Position numbers and translations under genes: made by a program
Notes under the pieces: generated by a model
What the model was told of the DNA's origin: nothing
Database searches by the model: none
The model's input: the letters and a program-made list of their open reading frames with translations, nothing else
Assembly: GCA_947176375.1 (NCBI GenBank)
Contig: CAMWQM010000015.1
Span: forward strand, 1-48,602
Length of the DNA: 48,602 bases
From: an uncultured Helicobacteraceae bacterium
GTDB lineage: Bacteria > Campylobacterota > Campylobacteria > Campylobacterales > Helicobacteraceae
Reading direction: 5' to 3'
Part shown: piece after piece, positions 13,103-41,016 of the stretch
Layout of the letters: every line of letters begins with the position of its first letter
Position numbering within the stretch: position 1 is the stretch's first letter

Positions 13103-15301
13103 ATGTCTGGGACTAGAGAGCGCATCACAGGAGTAATTAGCCCTTTTGTAAAGAAAATTTTTACATCTAAAGATTTAGTTGTAGTATTTTTCTTAATTGC
13201 AATTTTGGCAATCATCATTATCCCGCTTCCTAGCTATTTTTTAGACTTTTTTTTGATTATCTCTATTGCACTTTCTGTGCTTATTATTTTAATAGGATTA
13301 TATATTAGTAAACCCACAGATTTTTCGGCATTTCCTACGCTTTTGCTTATGGTTACACTCTTTCGCCTTGCTTTAAATGTTGCCACCACAAGAATGATTT
13401 TAAGCAATGGACATTTGGGAGTTGAAAATGTAAGTGAGATTGTAAGCGCATTTGGGCAGTTTGTTGTAGGTGGGAATTATATTATTGGAATCATTGTTTT
13501 TTCAATTTTAGTAATTGTAAATTATTTGGTTATTACGAATGGCTCAACGCGTGTTGCAGAGGTTCAAGCTAGATTCACACTAGAGGCAATGCCGGGAAAA
13601 CAAATGGCAATTGATGCAGATTTAAACTCCGGACTAATAGATAAAGAAGAAGCACAAAAAAGAAGAGAGATACTAGTGCAAGAAGCAGATTTTTATGGCT
13701 CAATGGATGGAGCTTCTAAGTTTGTAAAAGGCGATGCAATTGCCGGAATAATCATTACTTTTGTAAATATTATAGGTGGATTCTTAATAGGTGTATTTGG
13801 CAATAATATGAGTATAACAGAGAGTGCAAGTACTTTTACAATCCTAACTATCGGCGATGGTTTGGTTAGTCAAATTCCAGCATTAATTGTCTCAACTGCC
13901 ACAGGTATCGTTATCACTCGTGCTACAAAAAGTGATGAGAAAGATTTTGCCTCTGGCATCGTAAATCAACTTTTAGGAAATAGCAAGATTCTTGCAATCG
14001 TTGGTGCAATCTTGCTATTTTTTGCCCTAATTCCTAATCTCCCTGCTTTATCTTTAGGTTTTGTTGGGGGATTATTTATACTAATGAGCTATCTTCTTAG
14101 TGCAGGAAGTGAAAATATTTTTAGCAAGAGAATCTTCAAAAGACAGCAAAAACCAAAGCCACAAATAAAGCAAGTAAAACAAGAAATACCAAATGAACCA
14201 CGAAGTTTAAAAAGTATTAGAGAATTAGAAGAACAGCTTGAGCTCAAACATCAAGCAAATATAGATGATAAATTAAAAGTTAATGTTTTATTACTATCCA
14301 TTGGCTATAATCTCTCAAGGCTCGCAGAACACCCAGATAGCCCACTAATCGAGCGGATTAGAGGAGTTAGAACAAATATAGCACAAACTTATGGATTTAT
14401 TATCCCTAAAATTCGTATAAAGATTAATCCTAGTCCAGATTTTTCACCAAATGGCTATGAGCTTTTATTAAAAGGTATTAAAATTGCAGGCGGCGAGGTA
14501 ATGCCAGATAAATATTTAGCTATGGATTTAACAGGATTAATCACAAAAGAAATAGAGGGAATCCCAACAAAAGAGCCAGTCTATAACTCAAATGCCCTTT
14601 GGATTGATAAACAAGACAAAGATGATGCTATGATTGCAGGATACACGGTTGTGGATTCTTCGGTTGTAATTAGCGCACATATTGATGAGATGATTAAATA
14701 CCATGCAGAAGAGATTCTAACGCGTCAAGATGTGAAGAATTTAATCGATAGATTAAAAGAGGATTTCCCTAGCCTTGTGGCAGACGCAGAGAAGATTCCA
14801 CTAGGTGTAATTCATCAAATATTAAAAGAATTATTACATGATAAGATTCCGATAAAAGATATGCTAACAATCCTAGAGACAATCATCGAAGTCGCACCAA
14901 AAACGCAAAATAATATCCCAATAATTATGGACTATGTGCGAAGCAATCTCTCTCGCGTAATTACTGATACTTTTAAGAGTGATGATGGAAAAATTAAGCT
15001 TTTCACACTGCCACAAGCAGCTGAAGATTATCTAATCTCAAAATTACAAGATACGCCTTATGGCAAGCGATTTATGCTAAATATTAATGAAATGCAACTT
15101 TTAGTCAATGCGATGAATGAAGCAGTAGAAAAGGCAAAGGCGATGCACATTATTCCTATTTTGCTTGTGGAGACAACACTTCGCAGCACTCTTGCTAAAT
15201 CAATGGAAAAGAATAATGTTCCAATTACGATTTTAGGAAATGCAGAGATTAGCACGAATGCTGAATATGAATTTTTAGGCAATTTAGATTTAAACTTTTA
15301 A
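13103..15301 (+). CDS. flhA: FlhA, flagellar export gate protein
   Basis: FlhA is the large inner-membrane component of the flagellar type III export gate. In Helicobacter and Campylobacter it also gates the flagellar sigma-54 cascade. The N-terminal half (about residues 20-330) has multiple membrane helices. The family signature lies at ARFTLEAMPGKQMAIDADLN. The cytosolic C-terminal half follows a charged linker at about 345-375. The 732 residues match the family length. GGAG lies about six bases before the ATG. It heads a plus-strand run that continues into a DHH protein. Confidence 0.97.
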   Translation: MSGTRERITGVISPFVKKIFTSKDLVVVFFLIAILAIIIIPLPSYFLDFFLIISIALSVLIILIGLYISKPTDFSAFPTLLLMVTLFRLALNVATTRMILSNGHLGVENVSEIVSAFGQFVVGGNYIIGIIVFSILVIVNYLVITNGSTRVAEVQARFTLEAMPGKQMAIDADLNSGLIDKEEAQKRREILVQEADFYGSMDGASKFVKGDAIAGIIITFVNIIGGFLIGVFGNNMSITESASTFTILTIGDGLVSQIPALIVSTATGIVITRATKSDEKDFASGIVNQLLGNSKILAIVGAILLFFALIPNLPALSLGFVGGLFILMSYLLSAGSENIFSKRIFKRQQKPKPQIKQVKQEIPNEPRSLKSIRELEEQLELKHQANIDDKLKVNVLLLSIGYNLSRLAEHPDSPLIERIRGVRTNIAQTYGFIIPKIRIKINPSPDFSPNGYELLLKGIKIAGGEVMPDKYLAMDLTGLITKEIEGIPTKEPVYNSNALWIDKQDKDDAMIAGYTVVDSSVVISAHIDEMIKYHAEEILTRQDVKNLIDRLKEDFPSLVADAEKIPLGVIHQILKELLHDKIPIKDMLTILETIIEVAPKTQNNIPIIMDYVRSNLSRVITDTFKSDDGKIKLFTLPQAAEDYLISKLQDTPYGKRFMLNINEMQLLVNAMNEAVEKAKAMHIIPILLVETTLRSTLAKSMEKNNVPITILGNAEISTNAEYEFLGNLDLNF

Positions 15302-19199: not shown

Positions 19200-19542
19200 T
19201 AAATATTATAAAAATAGGAAATCTAAAAATTTATTGTTATAAAAGTTTGATATAAATTTCTAACTACACCAAATATAATTTGAATAATAATTAAATTTTG
19301 TAGTAAATAATCTACCTAAAAACTTCAATTTCTAAACCTTTATAATATCTTGCTAAGACTCTAGTCTCTAAAAAATTAAATAGTTTTTAAACTAAAACTA
19401 TCAATTTTTAAGCTCAATTTAAATGGGGGGGGCAGAATTAGATTCTTGAAAGGAGGGGGTTAAAAAATCAAAAATATTATCTAATAGATTTTGTCATATT
19501 TTATTAAGCAATAAATATAAAAGCTATGGAGGGAATAATAAT
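19200..19542. other. Intergenic region with a G8 tract
   Basis: This 343-bp gap holds G8 at 19425-19432 in the context AAATG(8)CAGAATTAG, and a second G-rich stretch (GGAGGGGG) about 20 bases on. No open frame of note crosses the tract, so it would act, if at all, through promoter spacing or a lost upstream gene end. GGAGGGAAT before 19543 is a ribosome-binding site for the next frame. Confidence 0.5.
19425..19432 (+). repeat. Homopolymeric G8 tract
   Basis: Eight consecutive G preceded by AAAT, about 110 bases upstream of the McrB-domain remnant. It resembles the slippage-prone tracts at 24234 and 40474, sharing AAT before the Gs but not AATCGCA after. Confidence 0.8.
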
Positions 19543-21562: not shown

Positions 21563-22780
21563 TTAATCTCCATATCCATAATTTTCTACTACAAAGTCTA
21601 TATCCTTATCGCCTCTACCACTTAAATTTACTAAAATCTTTTTACCTTTGAGATCCGGAGCGACTTTTAGTGCATAGGCTAGGGCGTGGCTAGATTCGAT
21701 AGCTGGTATTATTCCCTCCATTTTGCTTAAAGTGAAAAACGCCTCAATAGCCTCTTTGTCATTTATCACATCTACTTTTGTGCGTCCTATGCTGTGTAAA
21801 TATGCGTGTTCTGGTCCCACACTTGGATAGTCTAGTCCGCTTGCTACGCTATGCACACTAGCAGGCTCACCTTTATTATCTTTTAGCATAATCGAATTAA
21901 AACCATGCATTTGTCCCTCACTTCCATAGCTTAAGCTTGCTGCGTGTTCTCCTAATTTGACATTATTAATATTTGATCTGCCTAGTGGCTCAATCCCAAC
22001 TAAATCAACATAGGAATCTTCAATAAATGCACTGAAAATTCCCATAGCATTACTTCCTCCGCCTACACAGGCAACTACCATATCTGGCATTTCTCCTGTC
22101 ATTGTGATAAATTGCTCTTTTGCCTCAATGCCTACAATATGCTGGAAATCACGCACAATCTTTGGAAATGGATGCGGTCCAACCACACTTCCAATAGCAT
22201 AAAAAGAATTAATAGGGTCTGATAAATATGCTTCAAATGCAGAATCTACTGCTTCTTTAAGTGTTTTTGCTCCAAAGCTAACAGGCACCACTTTTGCCCC
22301 TAGAATCCTCATTCTAGTCACATTTGGATGCTCTTTTTTTATATCAACCTCACCCATATGAATTTCGCATTCCATTCCAAAATATGCTGCCGCAGTCGCT
22401 AGTGCAACTCCGTGCTGTCCTGCACCTGTCTCTGCTATTAACTTCTTTTTTCCCATAAATTTTGCTAAAAGCGCCTCCCCCATACAATGATTTAGCTTGT
22501 GAGCGCCTGTGTGATTTAAATCCTCTCTTTTTAGATAGATTCCAGCTCCATTGTATTTTTTTGTAAGATTTTTTGCAAAATATAGAGGAGTAGGGCGTCC
22601 TTGAAAATCTTTTCTTATTTTTCTAAGTTCATTTATAAACTCTGCATTTTGTGCTATTAGATTATATGCTTCATTTATTTCTTTCATTTGCTTTGCTATT
22701 ACCTCTGGGACAAATGCTCCGCCAAACTTCCCAAAAAAGCCATCTTTATTTGGAAACTCTTTTAAATATGGTGTTTTCAT
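21563..22780 (-). CDS. trpB: Tryptophan synthase beta chain
   Basis: TrpB condenses indole with L-serine to give tryptophan, using PLP. I place the start at the ATG at 22780 ([21 protein letters not shown], 405 aa), with AAGGA seven bases upstream. A longer GTG-initiated frame to 22876 adds 32 residues not typical of TrpB. The PLP lysine is K95 in HTGAHKLNH, and the phosphate loop is [10 protein letters not shown]. No trpA or other trp gene is adjacent, so this is an orphan trpB here. It is preceded by a leader peptide rich in Trp codons, suggesting attenuation-type control. Confidence 0.95.
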
Positions 22781-22855
22781 TGTTTTATCCTTTAATTTTG
22801 TTTTTGATTTTTTATAATTATGAAATATTTTAAATATTGAAGTTAGTGTATGATT

Positions 22856-22872
22856 TGGTGCGTTTAGCACCA
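22856..22872 (-). promoter_or_regulatory. Leader hairpin overlapping the Trp codons
   Basis: On the minus strand TGGTGC and GCACCA are complementary with a TAAAC loop. The 5' arm contains the end of the tandem TGG codons and the leader stop codon. An alternative 7-bp pairing TTTGGTG with CACCAAA is possible. No U-run follows, so this is not a simple intrinsic terminator. Confidence 0.5.
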
Positions 22873-22920
22873 CCAAAAGAATGCGATAATAAATAAGTTT
22901 AATGAAGCTTTCTTATTCAT
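22864..22920 (-). CDS. Putative Trp leader peptide upstream of trpB
   Basis: An 18-codon frame reads [18 protein letters not shown] and stops with TAA 83 bases before the trpB ATG. Two adjacent TGG codons lie next to the end, the hallmark of trp leader peptides that sense charged tRNA-Trp. AAGGAG lies 15 bases upstream of the ATG (a long spacer), and a TACAAT promoter box is 36 bases upstream. The Trp codons run into a hairpin-forming sequence. Random placement of a WW-ended short frame exactly before trpB is unlikely. The mechanism (transcriptional or translational) is not resolved. Confidence 0.65.
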
Positions 22921-22956
22921 TATTTTTTTGTAATTCTCCTTAAAATTGATCTTAAA

Positions 22957-22962
22957 ATTGTA
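22957..22962 (-). promoter_or_regulatory. -10 box for the trpB leader transcript
   Basis: TGTGATACAAT read on the minus strand gives an extended -10 (TG-n-TACAAT-like). The implied transcript start near 22950 would place the AAGGAG and leader frame at the 5' end of the mRNA. Confidence 0.45.
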
Positions 22963-23230: not shown

Positions 23231-24980
23231 TTATCTCCATAAACTTTCATAGAATCTAGAATCTGAGCTTATTTGTTTATTAAACTCATCAATTCCATAA
23301 ATTTCAAGCAAAGTCTTTTGATAGAGTGGATTGCGTCCTAACCCGAAATATTGAGTAGGAATATTTAGCGAATCTAAAATCAGAGCAGATATGTCAAAAT
23401 GGCTTAATTTTCTATTTTTTATCAAATCAGCACCAGGAATCTTGCTAAAAGATGGATTTATAAAAACATTATAAATAAATCTATTTTCCATATCACCCAC
23501 TCCCCACGCCAAATGGTCACCTACAATTATAATTGTGGTGTCTTTGTAAAATTCTTGCGTCTTAATCCAAGAGATAAAATCATTTAGGATTCTATTTCCG
23601 CATTCTATCGCACCGTTCAATCCATATTCTAAATTTGGGCAATAAACTTTATCTAAAAATCCCTTTGGTCCGTGTGTATCAACCGTGCTAAGGTATAGGG
23701 CAAAAGGAGCCTTAAAATCATAGTTTGATAAAAATTTTTTTGCTAGATTTAAAACTTGTGCATCTTTAATGCCCCAAAATCCAGATTCTATTTCTAATTC
23801 ATTTCTAAAATAATTTAAATCATAAGCCTCAATATTGTGCGAAGCAAAGAGGTATCTTGAGCCAACAAAATTAAAGTCATATCCAAGTATCGCCCGTTGA
23901 TTGTATCCAAGCTCATTTAGCACATCACTAATGCAAGTTGCAGATTCTAAAAATGTATTATTGATAAATAGATTTATTCCTCTAGGCAGATTTAGTGGAA
24001 TCGCACATAAATATCCCGTAGTCCCTGCGGATAGTCCAGCTAGTATTTTTGCTTTGATAGATCCCACCAAATGAATTTGTATGGCTAAAATTTATATTTT
24101 CTAAAGCTAGATTATAGAGATTTGGAATTAGATTTTTAGTTTTATTAGTATTTGAATCTAGTGTATTTAAAGTGTTAGATTCTACTTTAGATTCCAAAGA
24201 TTCTATATTTTTAGAATCTAAATTTTTGCGATTCCCCCCCCCCATTTTATTATTTGTTGTATTTGCGTAAGTGGATTCCATTGATTCTGCAATAATTAGA
24301 ATTAAATTTTTTTGTTTATTTGACTTGTTTATAGATTCTAGAGTAATGTAGTTTTGTTCCAAAAAATTGCTATATTCCTTTGGTTTTAAAAATGAAATTA
24401 TCATAAAATGTTTATCTATCACCCTAAAGCTTGATATTGCAAATATAAAAATAATGCAAAATGAGGCTATGTTTAGCATTCCTTTGTCATTTAGAAATTT
24501 TGTATTTATCAATCTAGCTTTTAGATTTTTAAATATTTTGTAGATAAAAGTAAAAGCAATAAGAATTAGTAATAATAGAGTGATAATTTTAATAATTAGC
24601 GCAAAGCTAAAGCTTTGAGTATATAAAAAAGATTCATAATAAATTTTTATGATATACAACCTAGCATTGTTTAAAGTGCTGCTAATCTCATCTAAATCAA
24701 GCACATAGCTAATCGCACAAAAAGCTAAAATCAAAGCTAGCGTAGTTCGTGGCTTGAAATGAAATAATAAAGTTAGAAAACTACTTGCTAAAAATACATT
24801 GATAAAATAGCTTATATAAAATATTGAGCTAGCTCCATCTAGTGGCATATTTAGGTGAAAAATTATTGTTTCTAAGGTGGCGTTTGAGCCATAATTATTA
24901 ATTATCCAAAATGAGCTAAAAATTATCATTGATAGGATAAAAATTAGGATAATTTTTAGTATTGCTATGGGTCTTTGCAT
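23231..24980 (-). pseudogene. OpgB/MdoB-like phosphoglycerol (sulfatase-fold) transferase, frameshifted
   Basis: The N-terminal frame (24980 to about 24030) has roughly five membrane helices, then IIAESMEST, the metal/nucleophile segment of this family, and FGGIYQSKNTSWTI. The rest continues in another frame: AGTTGYLCAIPL, STVDTHGPKGF, GDHLAWG and FGLGRNPLYQ, matching MdoB landmarks. One extra base at 24029-24030 (minus strand ATCCGCA instead of ATCGCA) breaks the gene; without it the product would be 582 aa. A Gly/Asn/Ser-rich spacer just after the active site carries a G10 tract, in frame as it stands. Such enzymes add phosphoglycerol or similar groups to periplasmic or surface glycans. A sequencing error is possible. 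Confidence 0.8.
24234..24243 (-). repeat. Homopolymeric G10 tract inside the OpgB-like gene
   Basis: On the minus strand AATG(10)AATCGCA encodes Met-Gly-Gly-Gly-Asn-Arg in a low-complexity linker. Ten Gs keep the upstream and downstream parts of the N-terminal frame together; nine or eleven would truncate the protein soon after the first catalytic motif. Confidence 0.85.
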
Positions 24981-39303: not shown

Positions 39304-39531
39304 ATGACAAAACAAGATTTTTTGAAAGAATTGGAAGATTTATTACAAAGAGATGAAGTTTGTAGTGAAAATGATTTATTAGAGAAATATGAAGAGTGGG
39401 ATTCTTTGTCCAAAATGTCTTTAATAGCATTTTTTAATAAACATTTTAATATTAAGCTAACAATGCAATCATTTAAAAATATAAATAAGGTATCAGATTT
39501 AATTGCTCTGTCTAATGGCAATATACAATGA
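39304..39531 (+). CDS. Dedicated acyl carrier protein
   Basis: A 75-residue ACP carrying the growing acyl chain on a phosphopantetheine arm. The attachment Ser is S34 in EEWDSLSKMS, the DSL motif. It follows the KAS III stop codon directly, with AAGGAG eight bases upstream of its ATG. The sequence is unlike housekeeping AcpP (DSLDTVEL), so it is likely specialised for this operon. Its stop overlaps the next start as ATGA. Confidence 0.9.
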   Translation: MTKQDFLKELEDLLQRDEVCSENDLLEKYEEWDSLSKMSLIAFFNKHFNIKLTMQSFKNINKVSDLIALSNGNIQ

Positions 39532-40274
39532 TAGCCTTTAATAAAGAACAAATCTATATCGTTACAGGAGCAAGCTCTGGGATTGGAAAAGCAGTAGCAT
39601 TATTATTGAATGAATTAGGAGCTAGTGTTATTGCTATAGCTAGAGATAAAGAAAGATTAGAATCTATGAGAGCAGAATCTAAAAATCCAAATAATATTTA
39701 TATCGAGATAAAAGATTTATGCGATGATATTGAGACTTTACCTACTTACATCAAATCTCTTAAAGAAAAATATGGGAAATTATCTGGTATGGCTTATTGT
39801 GCTGGAATTGGTAATGCTACTTCAATACAATCAGTAGAAATCGATAGCATTAAAAAAGTATTTGATATAAATTATTATACTCCTGTTTTTATGACAAAGG
39901 GCGTGATTGATAAAAGAAATAATATTGGAAGTGGGACTTCTATTGTAGTTATTTCATCGATTGCTTCTGTATATTTTGATAAAGGTATGAGCATTTATTG
40001 TGGAGCAAAAGCTGCATTAAATGCTTCTATGAAAGTTATTTCAAAAGAAGTTGCAAAAAATAAAATAAGGGTAAATTGTCTTTCGCCATCTCTAATAAAC
40101 ACCCCATTATTAGAAGATTTCACTTTTGATGAAGAAAAGTCTTATTTAGATTCCTATCCATTTGGAATAGGTGAGCCAAATGATGTAGCAAATATGACTA
40201 TATTTTTATTATCAAATAAAGCTAAATATCTATCAGGTCAAAATTACATAATAGATAGTGGTGGTGTAGTATGA
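39528..40274 (+). CDS. Short-chain dehydrogenase/reductase (FabG-like), first copy
   Basis: A 248-residue NAD(P)-dependent reductase, expected to reduce the beta-keto group made by the condensing enzyme. The cofactor loop is TGASSGIG (13-20). The catalytic residues are Ser around 143, Y157 and K161 in SIYCGAK. It ends in GQNYIIDSGG, as in FabG. It overlaps the ACP gene and the second copy by four bases each. The first 190 bases and last 120 bases are identical to the following gene. Confidence 0.9.
   Translation: MIAFNKEQIYIVTGASSGIGKAVALLLNELGASVIAIARDKERLESMRAESKNPNNIYIEIKDLCDDIETLPTYIKSLKEKYGKLSGMAYCAGIGNATSIQSVEIDSIKKVFDINYYTPVFMTKGVIDKRNNIGSGTSIVVISSIASVYFDKGMSIYCGAKAALNASMKVISKEVAKNKIRVNCLSPSLINTPLLEDFTFDEEKSYLDSYPFGIGEPNDVANMTIFLLSNKAKYLSGQNYIIDSGGVV
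39535..39724 (+). repeat. 190-bp direct repeat, copy 1 (5' end of reductase 1)
   Basis: Identical base for base to 40278-40467, including the cofactor-binding loop. The one nearby difference is at the third codon of each gene. Confidence 0.9.
40155..40274 (+). repeat. 120-bp direct repeat, copy 1 (3' end of reductase 1)
   Basis: Identical to 40897-41016, covering the C-terminal 39 codons and the stop overlapping the next start. Confidence 0.9.
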
Positions 40275-40277
40275 TAA

Positions 40278-40467
40278 CCTTTAATAAAGAACAAATCTAT
40301 ATCGTTACAGGAGCAAGCTCTGGGATTGGAAAAGCAGTAGCATTATTATTGAATGAATTAGGAGCTAGTGTTATTGCTATAGCTAGAGATAAAGAAAGAT
40401 TAGAATCTATGAGAGCAGAATCTAAAAATCCAAATAATATTTATATCGAGATAAAAGATTTATGCGA
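40278..40467 (+). repeat. 190-bp direct repeat, copy 2 (5' end of reductase 2)
   Basis: Identical to 39535-39724. Identity stops seven bases before the G tract. Confidence 0.9.
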
Positions 40468-40473
40468 ATTAAT

Positions 40474-40482
40474 GGGGGGGGG
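40474..40482 (+). repeat. Homopolymeric G9 tract in the second reductase
   Basis: Context AATG(9)AATCGCAC. It marks the point where the open frame changes. The same AAT...AATCGCA context surrounds the G10 tract in the OpgB-like gene at 24234. Confidence 0.9.
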
Positions 40483-40896
40483 AATCGCACTATAGCAAAT
40501 TATTACAATTATCTCGTGAATAAATATGGGAAATTATCTGGTATGGCTTATTGTGCTGGAATAGTTGATATTTTGCCTATACAATCAATAGACTATAATC
40601 ATATAGATAACATATTTACTATAAATCATCATATTCCTCTTTTATTTATACAAACTTTTATTGATACAATAAATAGCAGTGATATATCAATAGTTATTGT
40701 TTCATCAGTAGTTGGGGTGAATCCTGCTAGTGGAATGATGGCTTATAGCGCATCTAAAGCAGCTATAACTCAATCTTGCAAAAGTATTGCTAATAATTGT
40801 AAAATTAGGATTAATACTATATCTCCATCAGATATAAACACTCCTATGACTATGAATGAGTTAGTCAAGCCATTAGTTGAGCAGAGATTAGATTCT

Positions 40897-41016
40897 TATC
40901 CATTTGGAATAGGTGAGCCAAATGATGTAGCAAATATGACTATATTTTTATTATCAAATAAAGCTAAATATCTATCAGGTCAAAATTACATAATAGATAG
41001 TGGTGGTGTAGTATGA
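40897..41016 (+). repeat. 120-bp direct repeat, copy 2 (3' end of reductase 2)
   Basis: Identical to 40155-40274. A shorter identical block of 41 bases (39768-39808 and 40522-40562) lies between the two end repeats. Confidence 0.9.

Follow-up and report, generated by a model that had tools for sequence, protein, structure and literature searches.

A putative tryptophan leader-peptide attenuator before a second, standalone-type trpB in a Helicobacteraceae-like genome

Within the window, by which we mean the whole stretch of 48,602 nucleotides analysed here, a short reading frame with two tandem tryptophan codons (WW) near its end lies on the minus strand before a tryptophan synthase beta-subunit gene, and we consider it probable, at roughly 0.6, that this region controls a second, standalone-type trpB as a leader-peptide attenuator of the TrpL type. 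The genome that holds the window (G000) is Helicobacteraceae-like, and the relatives retrieved for it are Helicobacter species. The gene is called trpB2 here as a name of convenience; it is not of the TIGR01415 TrpB-like class. The elements of the region, in the order in which they would be transcribed, are the following:

22957-22962, minus strand: predicted -10 hexamer TACAAT, within the extended -10 sequence TGATACAAT
22936-22941, minus strand: AAGGAG, a Shine-Dalgarno-like site of the leader frame
22864-22920, minus strand: leader frame of 18 codons, ATG at 22920 to TAA at 22864, its WW kept in G001 and G078
22870-22875, minus strand: TGG TGG, the two adjacent Trp codons and candidate sensor
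22856-22872, minus strand: hairpin UGGUGC-UAAAC-GCACCA, from the sequence and a centroid fold
22792-22855, minus strand: G-free, weakly structured stretch of 64 nt from the hairpin to the trpB2 Shine-Dalgarno, a possible Rho entry site
22788-22793, minus strand: AAAGGA, the Shine-Dalgarno of trpB2
21563-22780, minus strand: trpB2, second standalone-type tryptophan synthase beta subunit, 405 aa, TIGR00263

The original prediction had described an 18-codon frame ending FFWWC-stop, preceded by AAGGAG and a -10 box and with a hairpin overlapping the Trp codons, and the minus-strand sequence confirms this layout around what is a predicted promoter. The translated frame ends in F F W W C stop, and the 6-bp hairpin overlaps the end of this frame, from the second Trp codon through the Cys codon to the stop, with the UAA in its loop. 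The spacing from AAGGAG to the leader ATG, 15 nt, is long and constitutes a weak point; the leader stop lies 83 nt from the trpB2 start (ATG at 22780). The prediction was likewise correct that no U-run terminator follows the hairpin, where the sequence reads AAUCAUAC. Folds of the leaders yielded no convincing alternative pairing partner for the hairpin arms, only the one GC hairpin, and those of the window leader contained no mutually exclusive antiterminator and terminator hairpins. At Rfam gathering scores the window matched tmRNA only, with neither a T-box nor a Trp leader among the matches. Separately, a 12-bp AU stem (AUAAUGAAUAAG with CUUAUUUAUUAU; window 22886-22923, minus strand) encloses the leader start codon.

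The TrpB of the window scores 530.6 bits against TIGR00263, above the cut-off of 392.45, and is 50% identical to a second TrpB of the same genome, which is encoded in a complete trp operon on contig C3 in the order trpE, trpG, trpD, trpC, trpF, trpB, trpA (gene identities taken from translations together with TrpE, TrpA and TrpB searches). The earlier description of an orphan trpB with no other trp gene present therefore holds within the window and fails genome-wide, where all seven of these genes are found and the window gene is a second trpB. It is encoded away from trpA, which in G000 lies on a different contig, and trpA stood beside trpB2 at none of 80 related loci of other genomes, within flanks of up to 3 kb per side. 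A window-type trpB2 is present in 32 of 121 family genomes, and relatives at roughly 65-75% identity occur in many other phyla. We infer from sequence that its role would be to make tryptophan from indole and serine. Three genomes that carry trpB2 (G075, G078 and G115) had no trpE or trpA detectable at the thresholds used, and these would accordingly have no known way to tryptophan other than from indole through trpB2. A search of the genus for a Trp repressor (PF01371) found none, which makes leader control a natural tryptophan sensor.

In the proposed mechanism, a ribosome would translate the leader frame. When charged tRNA-Trp is scarce, this ribosome would stall on the two UGG codons and occupy the 5' arm of the hairpin, so that the sole hairpin could not form and transcription would enter trpB2. 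When tryptophan is plentiful, the ribosome would reach the UAA in the loop and depart, the hairpin would form, and the transcript would presumably end early. Since the U-run is missing, either Rho would have to end the transcript by acting on the downstream G-free stretch, or termination would be weak. Rho is encoded in the genome and is a possible terminating factor here; the 64 nt after the hairpin contain 8 C and 0 G, a C excess within the background range of G000. Canonical terminators, composed of a hairpin and a U-run, did not exceed shuffled sequence over the two 20-kb flanks scanned, and the 2.8 kb around trpB2 held 4 on the minus strand against 1.2 expected; because most of the window shows no excess of terminators over shuffles, the lack of a U-run carries less weight than it normally would, without being void. 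Convergent gene ends in G000 supplied only 6 pairs with GC hairpins, too small a set to indicate the kind of terminator that the genome employs. Points that count against an attenuator include the lack of a U-run, a stem of only 6 bp, the 15-nt Shine-Dalgarno spacing and patchy retention. A more specific form of the proposal, to be held only tentatively, is an attenuator reduced to a single hairpin made by the Trp codons themselves, with an off-state brought about by Rho or polymerase pausing in place of a U-run. It would serve an indole-salvage trpB specifically, alongside a trp operon under attenuation of its own.

The combination of WW and hairpin before trpB2 is more than chance. A layout pattern derived from the leaders of the window and of the nearest relative, G001 (TGGTGGNGCN{3,9}GCNCC), matches once in the 1.8-Mb G000 genome, at the window site, and once in the 1.9-Mb G001 genome, about 60-75 nt 5' of the same trpB2; the reversed control pattern matches neither genome. 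Because the pattern was built from both leaders, the evidence consists in its uniqueness per genome and its position at trpB2 and not in the mere existence of the matches. No other small reading frame with WW occurred among 110 sampled upstream regions of G000, which are about 21% G+C. Matches to the pattern were also checked in G117, G120, G094, G066, G083 and G085, together with one in G078; most of them overlap long frames or lie antisense to a gene, and no further Trp leader was recognised among them, with one match in G090 a possible exception.

Retention of the leader before trpB2 is genuine but patchy. In G001 the leader is MNNIFMILLNPRFLWWCFKHRILYTLH-stop with the hairpin GGUGC-UUUAA-GCACC, its stop lying 3' of the hairpin and not in the loop, and the neighbourhood differs, with a fumarase and an esterase upstream. 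G078 and Helicobacter rodentium (L048) have one and the same leader, which starts with TTG and ends in FVFAAWWGFRP-stop; in G078 it has the hairpin GGGGC-UUCC-GCCCC, a -10-like site of its own and a well-spaced Shine-Dalgarno. The WW and the hairpin are the only features common to the leader peptides of G000, G001 and G078, and a short frame with Trp codons near its end stands upstream of a trp gene in all three. Equivalent hairpins precede trpB2 in G001, G002, G078 and G083, the last of which (of group g6) keeps the promoter-like site, Shine-Dalgarno, reading frame (MDKLNQNLDIIPFLLLLYGAIAP-stop) and hairpin but has no Trp codon. In G002 the GGUGC...GCACC hairpin is kept and the frame is absent, and the G004 upstream region has neither frame nor hairpin. 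The expectation that close relatives would conserve the WW codons is thus borne out in G001, while G002 shows a bare hairpin and G004 nothing. In 22 more distant, order-level Campylobacterales trpB2 upstream regions no WW leader was found. Small Trp-rich frames reading FGWCNAWMMKL before trpB2 in other g6 genomes were set aside, since they encode the C-terminal end of a membrane protein (about 277 aa) whose gene lies upstream.

Such patchiness keeps a decayed attenuator a serious possibility, although one to which we assign a distinctly minor share of the probability: an ancestral WW leader with a terminator would have lost its U-run, and regulation would be gone. The relatives with no leader (G004), a hairpin only (G002) or no Trp codon (G083) fit such a history, as do the long Shine-Dalgarno spacing and the missing U-run of the window leader. 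However, G000 and G001 have both kept the WW and the hairpin despite changes in the remainder of the leader and in the gene neighbourhood, which argues against simple decay.

The tryptophan-leader reading, which is supported by the WW and hairpin at trpB2 of G001 and of G078, draws further support from leaders before trpE. In G000 the trpE leader, METKITLSYTLSHIISYFFILDSLSWRF-stop, ends in SWRF-stop, with one Trp codon and a hairpin on that codon. The corresponding leaders of G002 and G054 read MKTFSN...SMWWRP-stop over 30 and 49 codons and are alike mainly at both ends; a hairpin overlapping the Trp codons is followed by UUUUUUU in G002 and by UUUUU in G054, and thus plausibly forms an intrinsic terminator with the U-run that the window leader lacks. 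These two leaders read as simple one-hairpin attenuators, in which a ribosome on the Trp codons would block the 5' arm of the terminator. The trpB2 leader of the window has the same geometry as these trpE leaders, and only the U-run is missing. A leader with a C-terminal Trp codon before the trp operon, the arrangement that characterises Campylobacter TrpL, is found at trpE in G000, G002 and G054, whereas the window leader precedes trpB2 and not the operon. Upstream of trpE in 20 further family genomes, whose trpE is of a more distant type, no convincing WW leader was found. Promoter-like sequences before trpE lie as follows:

L015 (G000 contig C3), about 13705-13810, before trpE: promoter region of the trpE leader
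L123 and L124, before trpE: promoter regions of the trpE leader

As an observation in its own right, the trpE leaders look leaderless: a near-consensus TTGACA is followed after 17-18 nt by TATGAT and 6-7 nt later by the ATG, so that transcription should start at or beside the leader start codon. This promoter is almost exactly common to G002 and G054, which belong to different genera. Close to the trp operon, contig C3 also has a thioesterase-like frame, part of which (CERARSDIFFSSNVMPNTESIG...) is repeated in a second, chimeric-looking frame (L015 4826-5215 and 6442-6828).

Control of translation instead of transcription is an alternative that we judge unlikely. On this view the leader RNA would cover the ribosome-binding site of trpB2, and stalling of a ribosome at the Trp codons would expose it. 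In a fold of the 188-nt leader, UCUUUU adjoining the Trp codons does pair with the trpB2 AAAGGA, and UCCUUU or CCUUUU is found in the G078 and G083 leaders. However, the energy of the leader-Shine-Dalgarno duplex is ordinary, the fraction of shuffled sequences as good being 0.15, 0.48, 0.03 and 0.44 in four trpB2 leaders, such that the pairing does not exceed shuffles in three of the four; moreover, in none of the four does blocking the footprint of a stalled ribosome shift the predicted cost of opening the Shine-Dalgarno by more than about 0.2 kcal/mol. Sequestration of the Shine-Dalgarno, apparent in one fold, was rejected on the shuffles and on the lack of relief from a stalled ribosome.

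Translational coupling, which the original prediction had suggested, would proceed through a GTG- or TTG-initiated frame fused to trpB2 and starting within the Trp codons. Such a frame exists as described, with its TTG/GTG start inside the Trp codons at 22876; it is open in G000 and would add 32 residues to trpB2. It is, however, closed in relatives, within about 14 codons in G001 and almost at once in G078 and G083, and trpB2 is equipped with a separate AAAGGA and a separate ATG, the latter being where the conserved TrpB2 protein starts. With the frame closed elsewhere, Shine-Dalgarno pairing at the level of shuffles in three of four leaders and predicted access to the ribosome-binding site unchanged by stalling, coupling finds no support and is very improbable. 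We regard as equally implausible a TnaC-like arrest of the nascent peptide by free tryptophan, under which tryptophan would induce the gene and not repress it. A short peptide with Trp close to its end and a G-free stretch after it would suit such an arrest, yet the conserved last-codon Pro is absent from the window leader (WWC-stop), the spacing from Trp to stop varies among the leaders, and induction by tryptophan of a gene that makes tryptophan would be perverse.

Elsewhere in the window, a gene resembling membrane sulfatases or phosphoethanolamine transferases (23231-24980, minus strand) is broken near 23982-24070 and so occupies two frames. Within its N-terminal part lies a C10 tract (24234-24243); since the C-terminal frame does not stay open as far back as this tract, the tract does not by itself explain the break. 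Two further tracts are possible phase-variable switches, a G8 tract at 19425-19432 and a G9 tract at 40474-40482, the latter at the start of a short-chain dehydrogenase-like frame (40462-41016). This frame and its neighbour (39528-40274), also short-chain dehydrogenase-like, have an identical C-terminal stretch, YPFGIGEPNDVANMTIFLLSNKAKYLSGQNYIIDSGGVV, which suggests a recent duplication or gene conversion.

An attenuator at trpB2 would tie leader control to a separate, standalone-type trpB. Indole from neighbours is plentiful in the gut, and a trpB expressed while tRNA-Trp is uncharged would allow indole salvage in place of the full pathway. For H. rodentium and similar genomes, in which trpA and trpE were not found, trpB2 would be the sole tryptophan route.

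Among known systems, the E. coli trp leader comprises tandem Trp codons, a four-segment antiterminator and a U-run terminator. The window leader resembles it in having tandem Trp codons in a short leader and a hairpin whose formation would be tied to ribosome position, and differs in having neither the four-segment antiterminator nor the U-run and in placing its Trp codons inside a single hairpin. Closer in phylogeny, the C. jejuni trp operon (trpEDFBA) is preceded by TrpL, with one Trp codon and an RNA that reportedly ends just after the stop (PMC3847290, PMC11955535), and Ribo-seq later showed the TrpL start (PMC11955535). The window leader shares with this TrpL a short frame with a C-terminal Trp codon before a trp gene in the same phylum; unlike TrpL, which serves a whole operon with one Trp codon, it precedes a standalone trpB, has WW and lacks a U-run. 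Porcelli and colleagues (PMC3847290) found TrpL in no species beyond C. jejuni, C. coli and C. doylei, reporting its absence from other Epsilonproteobacteria with trp genes; the present reading would extend tryptophan leader control from these three Campylobacter species to the Helicobacteraceae, where it was reported absent (PMC3847290). In Corynebacterium diphtheriae, attenuators were predicted on both the main trp operon and the trpB2A locus (PMC1262725), and there, as here, a second trpB locus has its own Trp leader beside a regulated main operon; unlike the window, that locus includes trpA and has a classical antiterminator and a GC-rich poly-U terminator (PMC1262725). In actinobacterial ilvB leaders the regulatory codons overlap the terminator, and for mycobacterial cys leaders, which have no terminator, Rho has only been proposed (PMC1262725); the window leader resembles the former in the overlap of codons with the hairpin and the latter in the lack of a recognisable terminator, whereas those leaders concern other amino acids in another phylum. 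Given the prior TrpL, C. diphtheriae and actinobacterial leaders, the window offers a case of a known type, with the missing terminator as its distinctive feature. Finally, standalone TrpB enzymes are exemplified by Pelodictyon luteolum plTrpB and the ancestral LBCA-TrpB (PMC11917138), which the window TrpB2 resembles in being separate from trpA. The ancestral standalone LBCA-TrpB is also its nearest solved structure (PDB 5ey5), although of six residues associated with standalone activity, as read off one alignment, only three are identical in the window protein (E48, T65 and S199), whose activity is a predicted one.
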